Assembly (NCBI GenBank): GCA_014859225.1
Contig: JACUUP010000017.1
Coordinates: 1-18,874 of the forward strand
Direction: 5' to 3'
Length of the DNA: 18,874 bases
DNA from: Candidatus Aerophobota bacterium
GTDB taxonomy: Bacteria; Aerophobota; Aerophobia; Aerophobales; B3-G15
In this document: positions 2,788 through 17,121 of the stretch, one piece after another
Layout: each line of letters begins with the position of its first letter
Numbering within the stretch: position 1 is the stretch's first letter
The notes under the pieces: model-generated
The model's database searches: none
Seen by the model: only the letters and a program-made list of their open reading frames with translations
Told to the model about the DNA's origin: nothing
Position numbers and translations under genes: made by a program

Positions 2788-3675
2788 CTACAGCTTTAAC
2801 CCCATGGAGACCCGGTGAGTATCTCCCAGCCTGGCATAGGGAACATAGGCGTAGTCAAAGCTAACTTTTTCTAAATTAAAACCAAGACCACAGGAAAACT
2901 CCGAGTCAACGTATCTATTATAGCGAGAGCCTGCCCTTAATGTAAAGGTTTGTGAGAGAGGAACCTCTAAGCCCACAGCAACAAAGTGTGTTTTATTATC
3001 GGCAGGGAATGCAACATCAAAACTCAAGTTGAAAGAGCTCATCTTTAGAGCAAAACCTACTTTGTAGGTCAAAGGTAAAGGGTCTTCTTTCAGACTGGAG
3101 CCAAGATTCTGGATGGCAAGACCAACATCAAGAGAAGGCAGGGATTTAATTAATCCAATATTAGTATGAAAAGCTGCCTGCTGGTCAGCATCTATTGTAT
3201 CAGCTAAATAACCTGCTGCTATACCTAAGGATAGGTCTTTACCTACATTTTTTGCGTATGCTATCTGGAAAAGTAAATTTGAAGCACCAAACTGGTACGT
3301 GGGCTCGCCAAGTTCATCATATCCTTGAATTTTACCCATATCTGTGTAATTGAGGGCAAAGCCCCACACACTTTTTTCTGACGGTAAAACATAGCTTAGG
3401 TAACCCTGGGATATTTCCTGAAACCACATATTGTAAGTAGCGAAAAATTGCCTGTTTTTGATTTTAGTAAGTCCTGCCGGATTCCAGTAAATAGATGAAC
3501 CATCATCAGTTAAAGCGGTGAAGGCATCTCCTAATGCCGCAGCTCTTGCCCCAACTCCTATTTTCAAGAAGTTAGCACCGCTTGTTCCAACATCATTTGC
3601 TCCTGCCATCTGGCTGAGGCTGAAAATAACTATAAAGATGATTACTGGTAAAAGCGGTATCAGTCTTTTTTCCAT
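2788..3675 (-). CDS. PorV/PorQ-family outer-membrane beta-barrel protein
   Basis: A 295-residue protein with a hydrophobic signal peptide (about 1-26, ending MAGA) followed by the family hallmark at the mature N-terminus: FLKIGVGARAAALGDAF (36-52), then DDGSSIYWNPAGL (57-69). The remainder is alternating beta-strand sequence ending in MGLKL, as expected of an outer-membrane barrel. In Bacteroidetes, PorV is the shuttle/attachment subunit of the type IX secretion system; in other phyla the family is widespread with unknown role. The start has AAGGA about 7 nt upstream. The upstream gene ends 13 nt before it, and the megasynthase begins 26 nt after it. The adjoining secreted protein has a C-terminal domain of the kind seen in T9SS/FlgD-Ig proteins, so export or surface attachment of that neighbour is a plausible but unproved job. 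Confidence 0.87.
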   Translation of the reverse strand: MEKRLIPLLPVIIFIVIFSLSQMAGANDVGTSGANFLKIGVGARAAALGDAFTALTDDGSSIYWNPAGLTKIKNRQFFATYNMWFQEISQGYLSYVLPSEKSVWGFALNYTDMGKIQGYDELGEPTYQFGASNLLFQIAYAKNVGKDLSLGIAAGYLADTIDADQQAAFHTNIGLIKSLPSLDVGLAIQNLGSSLKEDPLPLTYKVGFALKMSSFNLSFDVAFPADNKTHFVAVGLEVPLSQTFTLRAGSRYNRYVDSEFSCGLGFNLEKVSFDYAYVPYARLGDTHRVSMGLKL

Positions 3676-3688
3676 ATATTTTCCTTCA

Positions 3689-5524
3689 TTATTTTATAAT
3701 GGCAATTTTCCCGCTAACGCTCAAAGACGGACTGGTCACTATATAAATATAGATACCTCTTGCCACCAGCTCTCCTTTTTCATTTTTGCCGTCCCAGATA
3801 ACTCTGTCAGGTAATGATTGCGCTGGCTCAAGCGTTCTTACCAGCTCCCCGGAAATAGTATAGATAAATACCCTGGCATCTTGAGGTAGATAGTCAATTA
3901 CCACCCCGCGCTGTTCACCCAGATAACAGGGGTTGGGATAGGCTTTAACAGGAAAAGCATCTACGGGCAAAGTTTCGGGTAAATGCTCAATTCTCCATAT
4001 CTCACAGCCTACGTAAGGTGAGTGCATATAAAAACCAAAAGGTCCAGGTGGCTCATCCGGACAACCTAAGTTAAATCCCTCTTCCATTCCAGGAACAGGA
4101 ACGGCATAAGGGGAAAAAACCATCCCGTCAACAAAATATGCCCAGCTTGCCATACCCACATATAATTTATTTTTAAACTTAGCAAGTGACCTTACCCCGT
4201 AAAGCTCTGAGAGATAAATCTTCTCTTTTTCAGAAGTTTCAGTTGTAACACATACGGGAACGCGATGAGTATCTCTTCTCATTCCCGGCTCGCTTATCTG
4301 CCTGAAACTTGCCGTATCTCCAGTATAGCTTGCCCAGAGCTCCCCGCCATTAAACATATTATGCGTGCCCACGAGAAGCTGGTCATCATACTCAATCATG
4401 CTCCACATGTACATATTACCTCGTCTTAAGCCTTCTCCTTCAGGGTCTCCCCAGCGAATGACACGTTCCCACGCCGGCTTACCATCACCACCCAGGCTCT
4501 CACCATCCCAGCGCCACAACTCTCCTCCCCTTCTTGCCACCAGTTGCCCCGGGGTAAACCTTTGAGTGCCAGCATAAAGCTTTTCCTTAAATACGCTCAT
4601 GGAAAGGATGGATACATTATCGGCTCTGCCAAACCCTGACTCGCTTACCTGGACCCATGCGGGACTGGTAGAAGGTGTATAGCGCCAGACCTCGCAGCCA
4701 TTTGCCGGTGTGGAGCCACCCCAGTATGATACTGACCAGGTTCCGGCATAAAGAGAGCCTTTAAACTCTATCATTTCACCCACCGAGTTTATGGGATGTG
4801 AAGGTCCCCACTCGGGGGGCGTGACCGATACCCAGGAAGCGGGATTAATACTGTCAAGGTCACCCTCAAGGACAGTTCCTTCGTACTTAAAAATTTGTGC
4901 ACTTTCCTCGCCAACCAGTTGCCCGGCATCGGTATAAAGCTCGTCCTGAAACTTTGCTATCCCTCTTGTTGACTGTGCGCCCACTTCAAAGCCGGGTAGA
5001 CTGGCTACCTTCCATCTGGTGCCATCGGTCACCCATATCTGGCAACCATCATCCGGATTATCTGTTTGTTTTAATGTGCCAAGCCACAAAAGTCCTGCAT
5101 GTTCTGTCATCCCACGCACACCTGTAAAGCCGGCAAGGTATCTTACAAATTCAAAATTTTCCCCATCCTGTGAGCGCCAAACCTCAGCTGTTCCACCTGT
5201 TGCTCTTGCATTCTGATTCATGGTTCCAACATAAAGCCACTCTCTTCCATCTTTATTGGTATAAGCCTTCATTGTCCAGGGGTATTCATTGTTTAAGTTA
5301 CCAAAACCATCCTTTACCACCCTCTGCCATCCATAGTTAACCGGGCTCTGAGTTGTGGATAGCTCGCCCTCTTTTTTTACTTCATAATAGGTTTCTTTAA
5401 GGTAATTAATAAAATCCTCACGTGATACACCCTGATTTATACTCTGAGCAAAAACAGCGCTACCCATTGTCAGTGCAAAAATGATTAAAGCTGCTAACAG
5501 TGGCAAAAATGGCTTTTTTATCAT
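3689..5524 (-). CDS. Secreted seven-repeat beta-propeller protein with C-terminal FlgD-Ig/T9SS-type domain
   Basis: A 611-residue protein with signal peptide (1-26, cleavage after VFA likely). I see seven repeats of the form LYxGT...G(G/C)E(V/I/L)WR: near 97, 146, 196, 258, 316, 383 and 454, each followed by an aromatic strand. Seven such units imply a seven-bladed propeller. The final 90 residues (522-611) are a separate domain: AYPNPC (528-533), VFIYTISGELVRTL (551-564), WDGKNEKGE (577-585), ARGIYIY (588-594), GKIAIIK at the end. This matches FlgD-Ig and T9SS type A sorting-like domains. Start ATG has GAGGA about 6 nt upstream. It is first in the operon with the PorV-like protein and megasynthase; no clear promoter is visible because repeat sequence begins about 40 nt upstream. 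The gene ends with tandem stops TAATGA. Ligand and enzymatic activity cannot be told from sequence. Confidence 0.85.
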   Translation of the reverse strand: MIKKPFLPLLAALIIFALTMGSAVFAQSINQGVSREDFINYLKETYYEVKKEGELSTTQSPVNYGWQRVVKDGFGNLNNEYPWTMKAYTNKDGREWLYVGTMNQNARATGGTAEVWRSQDGENFEFVRYLAGFTGVRGMTEHAGLLWLGTLKQTDNPDDGCQIWVTDGTRWKVASLPGFEVGAQSTRGIAKFQDELYTDAGQLVGEESAQIFKYEGTVLEGDLDSINPASWVSVTPPEWGPSHPINSVGEMIEFKGSLYAGTWSVSYWGGSTPANGCEVWRYTPSTSPAWVQVSESGFGRADNVSILSMSVFKEKLYAGTQRFTPGQLVARRGGELWRWDGESLGGDGKPAWERVIRWGDPEGEGLRRGNMYMWSMIEYDDQLLVGTHNMFNGGELWASYTGDTASFRQISEPGMRRDTHRVPVCVTTETSEKEKIYLSELYGVRSLAKFKNKLYVGMASWAYFVDGMVFSPYAVPVPGMEEGFNLGCPDEPPGPFGFYMHSPYVGCEIWRIEHLPETLPVDAFPVKAYPNPCYLGEQRGVVIDYLPQDARVFIYTISGELVRTLEPAQSLPDRVIWDGKNEKGELVARGIYIYIVTSPSLSVSGKIAIIK

Positions 5525-11271: not shown

Positions 11272-12813
11272 ATGATGGAAAAGATTTTTATACTTGATAC
11301 CACTTTGCGTGATGGTGAACAAACTCCGGGAGTTGCACTAAGCGCAGATGAGAAATTGAAAATAGCAAAAGCTCTGGAAAAGCTAAGAGTTGACGCAATT
11401 GAGGCGGGTTTTCCTGCCTCCTCTTCCGGGGATTTTGACGCAGTGAAACTTGTTGCCGGGGAAATTGAATATTCTACGGTGGTTGCACTTGCAAGAACAG
11501 TTCCAGATGATATTGAAAAAGCTGGCCAGGCTCTTGAGCGGGCTAAAAAAGCTCGTATTCACACCTTTATAGCCACATCTCCTGTTCATATGCAATACAA
11601 ACTAAAGAAAACTTCTGATGAAGTGTTAAAAATTGCAGTTGAGGCGATTAAGCTTGCCATGGAATATACAGATGAAGTTGAATTTTCACCTGAGGATGCT
11701 TCAAGAAGTGAGATTCCTTTTCTCTTAGAAATAATCCATGCTGTAGTTGAGGCAGGTGCCAGAGTTATCAATATTCCTGATACGGTTGGTTATTCAACTC
11801 CTGATGAGTTTGCCTCACTGGTTGAAAAGGTTAAAGACTGTGTATCTTGTATGGATAATGTGAGGGTAAGTGTGCACTGCCATAATGACCTGGGAATGGC
11901 GGTTGCCAATTCCTTAGCTGCGGCAAAGAAAGGTGCAAGACAAATTGAGTGCACGGTTAACGGGATTGGGGAAAGAGCCGGTAATGCCGCTCTGGAAGAG
12001 ATAGTTATGGCTATAAAGACAAGGGAAGATTTTTTTAATTACTACACGGAGATTAACACAAAGCAGATTTATCCAGTTTCCCGTTTGGTATCCCACCTGA
12101 CAGGTATTCCTGTTCAGCCAAACAAAGCTATTGTTGGGAAAAATGCCTTTCGTCACCAGGCAGGTATTCATCAGGATGGAATTTTAAAGAAAACAACCAC
12201 TTACGAAATAATTACTCCTTCCTCAATTGGACTGGAGCAAAGTGAGCTTGTTATGGGTAAATTATCGGGGCGTCACGCTTTTAAGGACCGATTGAGTACG
12301 TTAGGTTTTACCTTAGAGGGGGAGGAGCTGGAGAACTGTTTTGACGCTTTCAAGAAGCTTTCTGAAAAGAAAAAAGAAGTTTTTGATGAGGACCTTATAT
12401 TAATTGTAGAAGAGCATACTGTCAGAATACCTCAGGTTTTCATCCTTGACTATATTCACACTGTTACAGGCAATAAAATTCTTCCCACCGCAACTGTAAG
12501 GATAAGAAAAGGTGACAAGCTGTATCAAGAAGCAGCCTGCGGAGATGGGCCAATTGATGCTGCATATAAGGCTATAGACCGTATATGCAAACTTGAGTTA
12601 AGCCTTCTTGATTACTCTATTCAGGCAGTAACCCGTGGTAAAGATGCTCTGGGCGAGGTAACGGTTAAGGTTAAAAGAGGAGATAATCTGGTTTCAGGTA
12701 GAGGCTCATCTACAGACATAATTGAGGCAAGTGCCAAAGCTTACATTAATGCTATTAATCGCTTTTTATACCGCTATGTTAAGGAAAAAGAATATGAAAG
12801 CTATACAGGATGA
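11272..12813 (+). CDS. leuA: 2-isopropylmalate synthase
   Basis: 513 residues, the standard length of bacterial LeuA. It condenses acetyl-CoA with 2-oxoisovalerate, the first committed step to leucine. Catalytic HMGL-like barrel: [10 protein letters not shown] (8-17), HCHND with metal ligands His202 and His204, NGIGERAGN (230-238, ligand Asn238). The hinge ([11 protein letters not shown] region) and the C-terminal LeuA dimer domain (about 370-500), the allosteric leucine site, are both present. Two adjacent ATGs exist; AAGGA is 3 nt before the first and 6 nt before the second (11275), so the second may be used. No leuB, leuC, leuD or leader peptide is nearby. The end overlaps pheS by 20 nt. 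Citramalate synthase is a less likely alternative on sequence style. Confidence 0.95.
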
Positions 12814-13813
12814 GATAAAAAAGATAAAAAAAGACTTAGAGGAAAGACTGAGTAAAGCAAGTTCAGAAAAAGAGATAGATAATGTTAAAATAGATTTTTT
12901 AGGAAGGAAAAAAGGTAAAATCACTCTTTTATTAAAATATATTCCCGAATTATCCCCTGAAGAGAGAACTCGGATGGGAAGTTTATTAAATGAGCTTAAA
13001 AAGGAAGCGGAAAAGCTTATTGAGGGAAAAAGCGAGATTTTAAAAAAGGAAAAAGTAGCACAAAGGATAGTTGATGTTACTTTCCCTGGAGATAAGCCTT
13101 TGATAGGGAAAATCCATCCCATAACGCAAACTATCCAGAAAATTAAAGATATTTTTATCGGGCTTGGCTTTGAAGTTGTCATGGGACCGGAAATAGAGAC
13201 AGAATATTACAATTTTGAGGCTTTAAATATGCCCAGATTCCATCCGGCAAGAGATGAACAGGACTCCTTCTATATTGACTCAAATTGCCTTTTAAGAACT
13301 CAAACTTCTCCCGTTCAAATCAGAGTAATGGAAAAATCACATCCTCCCATCAGAGTCATCTCTCCTGGTCTTTGCTATAGAAGAGATGCCATTGATGCCT
13401 CTCATTTTCCTGTGTTCCATCAGGTTGAAGGTCTTGCTGTGGATGAGAAAATTACCTTTGCTGATTTAAAGGGATGTCTCACTTATTTTGTCAGGGAGAT
13501 GTTCGGGAAAGATACCAGGCTTCGTTTTCGTCCCAGTTACTTTCCTTTCACCGAACCAAGCGCCGAGGTAGATATAAGTTGTATTATCTGTAAGGGCTCA
13601 GGTTGCAGAGTTTGTTCTAATAAAGGATGGTTAGAGATTCTTGGCTCAGGAATGGTAGACCCGGAAGTTTTTAAAAAAGTGGGATATGATGTGGAAAAAT
13701 ACCAGGGTTTTGCTTTTGGTATGGGGGTGGAAAGAATTTGTATGCTTGAATACGGGATAGATGATATTCGTCTTTTCTTTCAAAATGATGTCAGGTTTTT
13801 AAGGCAATTTTAA
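12794..13813 (+). CDS. pheS: Phenylalanyl-tRNA synthetase alpha subunit
   Basis: 339 residues from the ATG at 12794 (AAGGA 8 nt upstream). An in-frame start at 12722 would add 24 unlikely residues inside leuA. It has the N-terminal coiled coil that contacts tRNA (about 1-90) and the class II core: motif 1 around [21 protein letters not shown] (131-151), motif 2 [12 protein letters not shown]...[20 protein letters not shown] (167-213), motif 3 [10 protein letters not shown] (308-317). A CxxC...CxxC pair (Cys263, 266, 271, 274) is typical of many bacterial PheS proteins. It should work as an alpha2-beta2 enzyme with PheT, yet no pheT follows: the next gene, 12 nt on, is FtsZ-like. The start overlaps the end of leuA, suggesting translational coupling. 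Confidence 0.96.
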
Positions 13814-13825
13814 AAAGGACAGATT

Positions 13826-14950
13826 ATGATTCAGTTTGATGTGGGCGAAAAGCTTCCTGAAAGGGAAGGTAAAGAGTTAAAACTCTTACATAAAAAAATA
13901 AAAGTTCTGGGAATAGGTGGGGCTGGATGCAACATAGTATCGCGCATTTATTCCAGGGATTGGTCTTATGTAGATTTTTTGGTCTGTGACTCCAGCATGA
14001 GGACACTTTCTGAATGCCAGGATGTAGAAAAAATGCTGATGGGAGATTCTCTTACCCATGGATGGGGAACAGGGGGTGATAAGGAGATAGCCAGAAAAGT
14101 TGCTCAGGAAGCAGAATCTAAGATAAAGGATGTGCTTCGGGGCGCAGACCTTATCTTTGTGGTTTGTTCTCTGGGAAAAGGATTGGGAACAGGAGCCTCA
14201 CCTGTTTTTTTCAAGATTGCAAGGGAGATAGGTATTTTATCTATTGGTTTTTTTGTTTTGCCGTTTAGCTTTGAAGGGAAAGAGAGTGCAGCAAATTCAC
14301 AGGAGGCATTGAATAGTTTATGGCAACTGGTAGATGGTGCGCTGGTGGTGCCCAACGATGTTCTTCTTAGTATAGAGAAAGCTCAGTCGGAAAACTCATC
14401 TTTGAGAGAAGTTTTTTCAAAGATAGATGCTGTTTTTGAAAATCTTTTGCAGTCAGTTGAGAGTGTTCTTTTCCAACCGGCAGTTATGGGTATTGATTTT
14501 GCTGATATTAAATCTTTTCTCATAAAAGGGAAAAAGCTAATGATTACGACAGGTGAGGGAACTGGAGAGGGATGTGTTGAGGAGGCTATAGAAAAGATAT
14601 TTTATTCTTCTGCATGGGGTGAGATTTCCCTTGATAAAACAAAAGGGGCTCTGCTTATTATTAAAGCAGGAGAAGCGTTTAAACTAACGGAGCTGGAGAA
14701 AATCATTTTATCTTTACAAAAAAGGGCTGCCCTTCCTATTCCAATCACCTTTGGAGTATATACAGATAAGGAACTATCGGATAAACTTATTATAACTTTA
14801 ATGACGTGCAGTGCCGATACTCAACAGATAGAGCCTGGAAAATTAGATACGCTATATCAGCAGGAATTGAAGCTGAAGACCTACGATGAAAAAGACCTTG
14901 ATGTTCCCACATTTTTGAGAAAAAACATCAAAGTTAACAATGAAGAATAA
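13826..14950 (+). CDS. Divergent FtsZ-family (tubulin-like) GTPase
   Basis: 374 residues, close to FtsZ length and readable along it: KIKVLGIGGAGCN (24-36, T1), LTHGWGTGGD (76-85, T3), DLIFVVCSLGKGLGTGASP (108-126, T4), PFSFEG (146-151, T5), GIDFADI (222-228, T7), and an extreme C-terminal LDVPTFLRK that recalls the LDIPxFLR tail of many FtsZ proteins. FtsZ polymerises with GTP into the division ring. Two hallmark sites are altered: the tubulin signature GGGTGTG reads GKGLGTG (Lys118, Leu120), and the T7 Asn is Gly222, although catalytic Asp224 and Asp227 remain. It is therefore a divergent FtsZ or a paralogue with changed GTP turnover, possibly working with a canonical FtsZ elsewhere. AGGA stands 6 nt before the ATG. 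It lies where pheT would be expected. Confidence 0.85.
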   Translation: MIQFDVGEKLPEREGKELKLLHKKIKVLGIGGAGCNIVSRIYSRDWSYVDFLVCDSSMRTLSECQDVEKMLMGDSLTHGWGTGGDKEIARKVAQEAESKIKDVLRGADLIFVVCSLGKGLGTGASPVFFKIAREIGILSIGFFVLPFSFEGKESAANSQEALNSLWQLVDGALVVPNDVLLSIEKAQSENSSLREVFSKIDAVFENLLQSVESVLFQPAVMGIDFADIKSFLIKGKKLMITTGEGTGEGCVEEAIEKIFYSSAWGEISLDKTKGALLIIKAGEAFKLTELEKIILSLQKRAALPIPITFGVYTDKELSDKLIITLMTCSADTQQIEPGKLDTLYQQELKLKTYDEKDLDVPTFLRKNIKVNNEE

Positions 14951-14966
14951 GCTATTAATTTAAAAA

Positions 14967-15182
14967 ATGCTAAGATACCTTAAGGAAAATAAGGGAAAAA
15001 TTGGTGGAGGTGTGGCCGGATTTTTGCTTGCTCTTCTTCTTATCATTGCCTGGCCTGTAATACTCATTCTATTTCTCATTTTTCTGGGAATTTTTTTTGG
15101 AGCAATTTTTGACCTTTTAAACAAAGGGCGCAGATGGTTTGAAGAATCTACCACAGAGCGCTCAAAAAACAAAAAAAAATAA
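14967..15182 (+). CDS. Small inner-membrane protein (DUF2273-like)
   Basis: 71 residues: a short basic N-terminus with NKGKIGGGVAGF (8-19), two hydrophobic segments (about 12-29 and 31-50) separated by a Trp-Pro turn, and a basic tail ending in four lysines among the last residues. The layout (N(R/K)GKI-glycine-hydrophobic) resembles the small membrane protein family DUF2273, but this is a pattern judgement. No good Shine-Dalgarno is visible; the gene starts 16 nt after the FtsZ-like stop, so translation may depend on coupling. rph follows after 14 nt. Because it lies between an FtsZ homologue and rph it could be a membrane partner of the former, but nothing in the sequence proves this. Confidence 0.65.
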   Translation: MLRYLKENKGKIGGGVAGFLLALLLIIAWPVILILFLIFLGIFFGAIFDLLNKGRRWFEESTTERSKNKKK

Positions 15183-15196
15183 AAGGAGCATTTTTT

Positions 15197-15907
15197 ATGA
15201 GGCGAGCAGATGGTAGGGCTCCAGATGAGCTTCGTCCTATTTCTCTCCAGAGAGGAATTATTCAACATGCTCAGGGCTCTGCCCTTATAAGTTTTGGTAA
15301 CACCAAGGTTCTTTGTGTTGCCATGGTAGAGGAGGGTGTTCCTCCCTTTCTTAAAGGAACAGGCAAGGGATGGTTAACGGCTGAGTATGCAATGCTTCCT
15401 TATTCAGCTCCCAATCGCTTCCCAAGAGAGATAGAGCAAAAAAGAGGGCGCTCTTATGAGATTCAAAGATTAATAGGTAGAAGCTTGAGGGCGGTGGTAG
15501 ATTTAAACAGGATACCGGAGAAAACCATCTGGCTGGACTGTGATGTTCTTCAGGCAGATGGAGGAACAAGATGTGCAGCGATTACAGGCTCTTTTATCTG
15601 TCTTCTTGATACAGACAACTGGCTCCAGAGGAAAAAATTAGTAGAGGATACCATCATAAAAGATTTTTTAGCCGCGGTGTCTATAGGTCTCACTAATGAA
15701 GATGATATCTTACTAGATCTCACATTTTACGAGGATTCACAGGCTAAGGTGGATATGAATTTAGTAATGACTGCGGGCGGAAAATTGGTGGAGGTTCAGG
15801 TTAGTGGAGAGGAGTATTCTTTTCCAAAAGAGGTTCTGGATAAACTAATAGATGCTGGTCAAAAAGGGATAGAGCTTGTCATTCAGGAAGAAAAGAGGCT
15901 TCTTTAG
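15197..15907 (+). CDS. rph: Ribonuclease PH
   Basis: 236 residues, usual size. A phosphorolytic 3' exoribonuclease that trims tRNA 3' ends and structured RNA. Motifs: RADGRAPDELRP (3-14), GWLTAEYAMLP (58-68), RGRSYEIQRLIGRSLRAVVDL (83-103, with the phosphate-binding Arg), QADGGTR (119-125), EDSQAKVDMN (179-188) holding the catalytic aspartates 180 and 186. The usual MLPRAT is MLPYSA here and VEVQGT is VEVQVS, unusual but outside the catalytic aspartates. Strong ribosome site (AAGGAG, 8 nt). rdgB follows after 8 nt; the rph-rdgB pairing is common in bacteria and supports both calls. Confidence 0.96.
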   Translation: MRRADGRAPDELRPISLQRGIIQHAQGSALISFGNTKVLCVAMVEEGVPPFLKGTGKGWLTAEYAMLPYSAPNRFPREIEQKRGRSYEIQRLIGRSLRAVVDLNRIPEKTIWLDCDVLQADGGTRCAAITGSFICLLDTDNWLQRKKLVEDTIIKDFLAAVSIGLTNEDDILLDLTFYEDSQAKVDMNLVMTAGGKLVEVQVSGEEYSFPKEVLDKLIDAGQKGIELVIQEEKRLL

Positions 15908-15915
15908 AAGATGCT

Positions 15916-17121
15916 ATGGAACTTGTCCTGGCAACCAGAAACACTGATAAAATAAAAGAGATAGAAAAGGTATTAAAGGGGCTTAATTTAAAAATACTTA
16001 CCTTCAGGGACTTTCCCAACTTTCCCTCGCCCATAGAAAGTGCACTCACTTTAGAAGAAAATGCTCTCATTAAAGCAAGGGCTGTGGCTGCTTTTACCGG
16101 TAAACTTTCCCTGGCTGATGATTCAGGTCTTGAAGTGCAGGCTTTACATGGTGCACCTGGAATATATTCTTCTCGCTTTGCCGGAGATAATGTATCCTAT
16201 GAGGCTAATAACAGGAAGCTACTTTTTCTTTTAAAGGATGTGCCCGAGGAAAAAAGAGATGCCACTTTCAGGTGTGTGATGGCTCTTGTTAGTCCTGAAG
16301 CAAAAGAGATGGTAGTGGAGGGAACCTGTCCCGGGAAAATAACTACCTTCCTGCGGGGAGAAGCTGGTTTTGGTTATGACCCTGTCTTTGAGCCTTCAGG
16401 ATGTAATAAAACTTTTGCCGAGATATCTCTTACAGAAAAAAATCGCATCTCCCACAGAGCTAAAGCTCTGGTTAAGGTCAGGGAGGCACTTGAGGAGCTA
16501 ACCGCTATAAGGGGAAAATTTTTAGTTGGGCTTACCGGTGGGATAGGTTGCGGCAAAAGCACTGTGGCAAAATTTTTTGATGAGTGGGGCTTGAAGGTTA
16601 TAAAAGCAGATGAGATTGGTCACCAGCTTTTGCAAAAGGATGATGTAAAGAAAAAACTTAGCTTGGTATTTGGAGATGATATTTTAAATGAGAAAGGCAA
16701 CATCTCCCGGGCTAAGTTAAGACAAAAAACTCTCCTTGATAAAGAAAAACTTCACCGCTTGAATGAAATCTTACATCCTTTAATAAAAAAAGTAATCTGG
16801 AATCTTTTAAAGAAGGAAAAGAATAAGATTGTAGTAATTGAGGCTGCTCTTATTTTTGAGGTTGGCTGGGATTTTTTTATGAAAAAAATAGTTACCGTTC
16901 ACTGCTCCCAGAATAAACAGATAGAAAGGATAAGGAAAAATACTCATCTAAGCGCAGAGGAGATACAGGCTTTTTTGTGTGTTCAGCTTCCTGAGGAGGA
17001 AAAAATGAAAAGAGCTGATTTTGTTATTCCAAATGAAAAAGATATGACAGAGCTTGAGGTAAAAGCAAAAGAAGTTTTTGCTAAAATTTTAAGGGAGAGT
17101 AGAGGTGGCAGCAAAAGCTAA
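15916..17121 (+). CDS. Fused XTP/dITP diphosphatase (RdgB/HAM1) and dephospho-CoA kinase (CoaE)
   Basis: 401 residues in one unbroken frame. Residues 1-197 are RdgB: LATRNTDKIKEI (5-16), ADDSGLEVQALHGAPGIYSS (67-86), FGYDPVF (152-158), SHRAKAL (179-185); it removes ITP, dITP and XTP from the nucleotide pool. Residues 201-400 are CoaE: P-loop GGIGCGKST (208-216), KADEIGHQL, HPLIKK, EAALIFE and the LID region ending ADFVIPN; it phosphorylates dephospho-CoA, the last CoA step. The joint (TAIRGKF, 196-202) has no stop and no in-frame ATG, GTG or TTG that could restart CoaE, so a true fusion is likely. CoaE usually has an Arg in the AxRIxxQ helix, here AFLCVQ. Both halves are full length. Weak ribosome site. 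The 3' end overlaps polX by 17 nt. Confidence 0.93.
   Translation: MELVLATRNTDKIKEIEKVLKGLNLKILTFRDFPNFPSPIESALTLEENALIKARAVAAFTGKLSLADDSGLEVQALHGAPGIYSSRFAGDNVSYEANNRKLLFLLKDVPEEKRDATFRCVMALVSPEAKEMVVEGTCPGKITTFLRGEAGFGYDPVFEPSGCNKTFAEISLTEKNRISHRAKALVKVREALEELTAIRGKFLVGLTGGIGCGKSTVAKFFDEWGLKVIKADEIGHQLLQKDDVKKKLSLVFGDDILNEKGNISRAKLRQKTLLDKEKLHRLNEILHPLIKKVIWNLLKKEKNKIVVIEAALIFEVGWDFFMKKIVTVHCSQNKQIERIRKNTHLSAEEIQAFLCVQLPEEEKMKRADFVIPNEKDMTELEVKAKEVFAKILRESRGGSKS

Follow-up and report, generated by a model that had tools for sequence, protein, structure and literature searches.

The ftsZ gene of the window (the whole stretch of 18,874 nucleotides of Candidatus Aerophobota DNA analysed here; Table 1) lies outside the division cluster and probably encodes the sole division FtsZ of its lineage, one whose GTPase and subunit-interface pocket has been rewired. 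The sample of the phylum comprises 17 species, all from one order and all represented by draft assemblies; the window's own genome measures 1.8 Mb and is 91% complete. Sixteen of these species carry an FtsZ of the same type, and these 16 proteins are referred to below as the lineage. Residue numbers are those of E. coli FtsZ unless the window protein or S. aureus is named.

Table 1. The ftsZ gene of the window, features of its product and the neighbouring genes
Feature	Position	Strand	Remarks
pheS	12794..13813	+	directly upstream of ftsZ in 16/16 members; named by eye from similarity, start codon inferred
ftsZ	13826..14950	+	374 aa; sole FtsZ/tubulin-family gene of the genome
Loop T2/H2, DSSMR for NTDxQ	13988..14002	+	residues 55-59; E. 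coli N43->D, D45->S, Q47->R
Loop T4, tubulin signature GKGLGTG	14174..14194	+	residues 117-123; K118 = E. coli G106, L120 = T108
Ser154 at catalytic Arg position	14285..14287	+	E. coli R142, S. aureus R143; from alignment
Loop T7, GIDFAD	14489..14506	+	residues 222-227; Asn -> Gly222, catalytic D224 and D227 kept
C-terminal peptide LDVPTFLR	14897..14920	+	residues 358-365; FtsA-binding type of tail, conserved across lineage
DUF2273 (PF10031) small membrane protein	14967..15182	+	71 aa; Pfam, above cut-off
rph (RNase PH)	15197..15907	+	downstream neighbour
rdgB-coaE fusion	15916..17121	+	Ham1 + dephospho-CoA kinase in one ORF

The window protein is a divergent FtsZ. It matches the Pfam families Tubulin (PF00091; 9.8e-33, 114.5 bits) and FtsZ_C (PF12327; 2.9e-8, 34.4 bits), both above cut-off, and solved FtsZs at around 1e-50 with about 30% identity. 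Against TIGR00065 (ftsZ) it scores 226.7 bits (5e-67), which is below the equivalog cut-off of 295 bits; six of its lineage relatives exceed that cut-off. The AlphaFold2 structure predicted from the window protein together with 22 relatives (mean pLDDT 78) superimposes on S. aureus FtsZ with a TM score of 0.88 (target-normalised), and the PDB structures 4b45 and 4b46, which we take to be CetZ, score far below FtsZ structures against the window protein. In an FtsZ phylogeny drawn without eukaryotic tubulins, TubZ and CetZ, the 16 lineage members form a monophyletic group (support 1.0) on a stem of 0.62 substitutions per site, nested within the bacterial FtsZs. The start codon chosen for the gene is backed by the N-terminus MI(E/Q/K)F that is common to the relatives. 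The catalytic Asp pair of loop T7 (D209 and D212) is present in all 16 members, as D224 and D227 in the window protein.

Several features argue for a working protein. The dN/dS of ftsZ lies between 0.17 and 0.34 in six pairs, the two most distant pairs being near synonymous saturation or without an estimate; the gene is under purifying selection, and these values together with intact reading frames rule out a pseudogene. The tail, L(D/E)(I/V)P(T/A)FLRK, is conserved in the lineage and predicted from its sequence to bind FtsA. A full-length canonical FtsA is found above cut-off in 15 of the 17 genomes, that of the window included, SEDS proteins (the FtsW/RodA family) in 16 of the 17, with two in the window's own genome, and FtsQ is present in relatives. 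The protein likely works as a division FtsZ. It shares with canonical bacterial FtsZ (TIGR00065; the S. aureus and B. subtilis structures) its fold, the GTP-binding loops T1, T3 and T6, the catalytic T7 Asp pair, the FtsA-binding tail, single copy number and a canonical FtsA in the genome. It differs in that the glycine of loop T4 is Lys in all members of the lineage, that the T7 Asn, the Asn and Asp of loop T2 and the Gln of H2 are largely replaced, and that ftsZ is not part of the division cluster.

The tubulin signature GGGTG(T/S)G is not matched; the window protein reads GKGLGTG and all 16 members have GKG, G106 being Lys throughout. This replacement and Gly222 at the T7 Asn had been pointed out in the initial annotation and are both seen in the translated ORF, as are the features it listed as retained, namely Asp224/Asp227, PFSFEG (residues 146-151) and LDVPTFLR. 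The changes of loop T2 (N43D, D45S, Q47R) and of R142 (Ser154) had gone unlisted. As a reference we have used 126 other FtsZs from across Bacteria, partly picked for their divergence, so that the contrast with the lineage is conservative. Among these, G106 is Gly in 121, Lys in one, Arg in one, Asn in one and Tyr in two. The T7 residue N207 is Asn in 117 and changed in nine; in the lineage it is replaced in 15 of 16, by Ser (8), Asp (5) or Gly (2), with Asn persisting in a single member (L063). Asp at position 45 is found in 9 of the 16 members versus 122 of the 126, and Q47 has become Arg in seven members and Lys in three, is still Gln in three and is something else in the remaining three, versus Gln in 112 of the 126. 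R142 is kept in 13 members and is Lys in two, with Ser found only in the window protein; T108 is Thr in 12, with Leu only in the window protein and L059. The residues D209, D212, E138, P134 and N165 are kept in all 16, and the T4 glycines other than G106 never change in the lineage.

To obtain a more general view, we took the 43 positions at which 127 other FtsZs show at least 90% conservation and ranked them by the frequency with which the lineage departs from them. G106 (16/16) and N207 (15/16) head this list, followed by D45, N43, L189 and V15 at 7/16 each. The departures are thus centred on the nucleotide and interface pocket, though not exclusively so. The window protein departs at 12 of the 43 sites, L059 at 11 and the other members at 3 to 9, versus a median of one elsewhere.

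What these positions do is known from filament structures of S. aureus FtsZ, whose numbering is that of E. coli plus one. There, the waters around Mg2+ are held by N44 and D46. In loop T7, K+ is coordinated by the side chain of N208, which also makes bonds to D46 and Q48 in the adjacent subunit; this K+ is locked by Q48, and R143 has an arginine-finger role. The catalytic water is positioned by D210 and D213, and the gamma-phosphate mimic is bonded by G108 and T109, which adjoin the glycine replaced here (PMC8936486). The substitutions D46A, R143Q, N208L, D210N and D213N each abolish assembly, whereas Q48A and R143K leave assembly intact and slow hydrolysis about 6-fold (PMC8936486). In E. coli, substitutions of G105 and G109, the signature glycines adjoining G106, give temperature-sensitive alleles (PMC8953583); no report of a G106 mutant was found in the literature searched. 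The lineage has kept both catalytic Asp residues; almost all the rest of the network is replaced in it, to differing extents, and in the window protein the equivalents of D46, Q48, R143 and N208 are all lost together.

On the simplest reading, the Lys would have been fixed in the common ancestor, on the long stem, and the other changes would have come afterwards, because the Lys is found in 16 of 16 members while at N207, D45, Q47 and R142 some members still have the canonical residue. With the Lys in place, the K+/Mg2+ network may have become partly dispensable, its charge duties at the interface with GTP passing to built-in basic side chains (K118 in T4, the Arg or Lys at Q47). Such a protein would be less dependent on K+ and/or slower in GTP hydrolysis than textbook FtsZ, hydrolysis being expected to be slowest in the species of the window, which lacks the catalytic Arg as well; it would still form GTP-dependent polymers and a Z-ring, with the canonical FtsA as its tether. 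A permissive role for the Lys is compatible with the order of events, which does not prove it. The rewiring is also partial and variable, one member (L063) having kept Asn at 207 and three having kept Gln at 47. In the five members with Asp at 207, the Q47 position is Arg (four) or Asn (one). Asp207 together with Arg at Q47 would permit a salt bridge between neighbouring subunits, a weak hint given that a single family (f6) accounts for four of the five.

The closest parallels to the Lys come from outside the lineage. The FtsZ L184 (genome G064), from an unrelated family elsewhere in the tree, has Lys in its T4 motif (GMGKGTGTG), but D45, Q47, R142, N207, D209 and D212 are all canonical there, so that the Lys alone does not force the other changes. 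A divergent Lentisphaeria FtsZ (L058) likewise has a basic side chain at position 106 in T4, here an Arg, along with divergent T7 and H2 residues; it differs in being only 21% identical and in having Ser at the D212 position, the second catalytic Asp being lost. The initial annotation suggested that GTP hydrolysis could be affected by the basic side chain in the phosphate loop. This idea gains some weight because several other residues of the Mg2+/K+ network have changed in the same lineage, and loses some because the unrelated L184 carries the same Lys in an otherwise canonical protein. The comparison also brought up two very divergent FtsZ-family proteins, L160 and L161 (genomes G097 and G367), with LGYGSGS at the signature and most catalytic residues changed; each is the only FtsZ-family match in its genome.

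Might all this simply be drift in an ordinary, fast-evolving FtsZ, with a Lys that is neutral and tolerated, and normal GTP hydrolysis and K+ use? FtsZ does evolve faster than its neighbours throughout the order: the window protein is 36-54% identical to its relatives, versus mostly 59-75% for leuA, pheS, rph and polX (one leuA comparison gives 53%), so that some of the changes may reflect relaxed constraint rather than compensation. The presence of the same Lys once elsewhere beside a canonical network (L184) is in keeping with drift, as is the variety of the changed residues, which do not converge on one new state. Nevertheless, it is the residues of the GTP/Mg2+/K+ pocket that lead among the 43 near-invariant positions, no member of the lineage has a change at D209, D212, E138, P134, N165 or the remaining T4 glycines, and single changes of S. 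aureus D46, of R143 to Gln or of N208 to Leu stop assembly (PMC8936486). We regard drift as a rather unlikely explanation of the whole pattern.

The family of the window itself (f1) invites a more extreme reading, namely an FtsZ that polymerises and hardly hydrolyses GTP, its stable filaments serving as a scaffold whose turnover would depend on other factors. In this family D45, Q47, R142, T108 and N207 are all replaced, the window protein and L059 have the highest numbers of departures (12 and 11 of the 43 near-invariant sites), and the S. aureus substitutions Q48A and R143K show that assembly can go along with about 6-fold slower hydrolysis (PMC8936486). However, both catalytic Asp residues are kept, and the failure of S. 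aureus D46A, R143Q and N208L to assemble (PMC8936486) makes loss of assembly equally predictable. Such a scaffold appears unlikely to us. Doubtful, too, is the broader proposal of an FtsZ that would be K+-independent across the phylum, in which the K+ cofactor would have been swapped for basic side chains (the T4 Lys and the H2 Arg or Lys), with altered Mg2+ handling and altered treadmilling. A division FtsZ with a rewired pocket is the reading that we retain as the most probable.

The initial annotation had envisaged that the window gene might be a paralogue beside a second, canonical ftsZ. No such gene was found in the window's own genome, where the window gene gives the only FtsZ/tubulin-family match. 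A single FtsZ of the lineage type is present in 16 of the 17 species (the window's own genome and 15 relatives, in assemblies 69-93% complete), and none of these 16 genomes has a full canonical second FtsZ. The seventeenth genome (G001, 82% complete) has no FtsZ match, and since it lacks pheS as well, that stretch must be missing from the assembly. Loss of a canonical ftsZ to the incompleteness of the assemblies is very unlikely across 16 genomes; from the completeness figures, with incompleteness treated as independent, the chance that such a copy escaped all of them is about 4e-14. Nor is an ftsZ hidden beside ftsA, as the ftsA contigs of the window's genome and of the relatives show other neighbours. 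One relative (G009) gave two extra short FtsZ matches, of which one is the same lineage FtsZ on an overlapping contig. The other (L102, positions 3658-3792, on G009:C40) is a piece of 45 aa with a canonical NLDFAD T7 loop; it lies at a contig end, antisense to and overlapping the tail of an alpha-2-macroglobulin-like ORF, and is probably a chimera or a contaminant, so that neither match was accepted as a second FtsZ. A divergent paralogue with a role other than division, alongside an unseen canonical FtsZ, could draw on this 45-aa fragment and on the location of the gene outside the division cluster, as is usual for second ftsZ copies (PMC9871819), but it is made highly improbable by the 16 genomes with a lineage FtsZ and no full canonical copy, by the conserved FtsA-binding tail and by the occurrence of the Gly-to-Lys change in the sole FtsZ of every relative. 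The absence of another FtsZ from the genome and the sharing of this change by all relatives refute the paralogue reading by the very test that the initial annotation had proposed.

The gene order around ftsZ is leuA-pheS-ftsZ-DUF2273-rph-rdgB/coaE-polX, the downstream part being seen in those relatives whose contigs extend far enough. The surroundings had been described as a housekeeping operon with no division gene beside ftsZ, and it is true that no named division gene adjoins it; the DUF2273 gene that immediately follows had escaped the list. A gene of this type, coding for 71-100 aa, directly follows ftsZ in 11 of the 14 lineage loci examined (the window, L059, L062-L064, L067-L070, L072 and L073) and is absent in L060, L061 and L065. 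The usual partner of DUF2273 in Firmicutes is an Asp23-family protein, and one is encoded elsewhere in 15 of the 17 genomes; it is possible that the DUF2273 protein is an FtsZ-linked membrane protein. In some species a protein with a fumarase C-terminal domain is encoded between the ftsZ side and rph, after the DUF2273 position. The rdgB and coaE genes, fused in the window and in some relatives, are two adjacent ORFs in other members of the order (compare L061-L065). Elsewhere in the window (2788-5524, minus strand), a gene for a PorV/UPF0164-type outer-membrane protein adjoins one for a protein of 611 aa whose C-terminus gives a weak FlgD/CHU_C-like match, a pair that suggests a type IX-like sorting system.

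In the relatives, the cluster murB-ddl-ftsQ-ftsA, or part of it, persists without ftsZ (murB and ftsQ identified by Pfam, ddl by eye), and the gene after murB-(ddl)-ftsQ-ftsA is pdxA, ahcY or one resembling a sugar-kinase gene; in the window's own genome ftsA lies between polA and gpsA, both named by eye from sequence. Bacterial ftsZ usually belongs to the dcw cluster; a copy located elsewhere is as a rule a second one, as in Bipolaricaulota (PMC9871819). The lineage gene resembles these in its location and differs in being the only copy: the sole ftsZ has here left the dcw cluster.

What matters is that ftsZ is separated from ftsQ-ftsA across a phylum, and that the tubulin signature of FtsZ and its K+/Mg2+ network have been regarded as near-universal. 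A sole FtsZ in which most of this network has been replaced constitutes a natural experiment on whether K+, the arginine finger and the T2 Asp are required for division, and on whether one Lys can make those parts dispensable.
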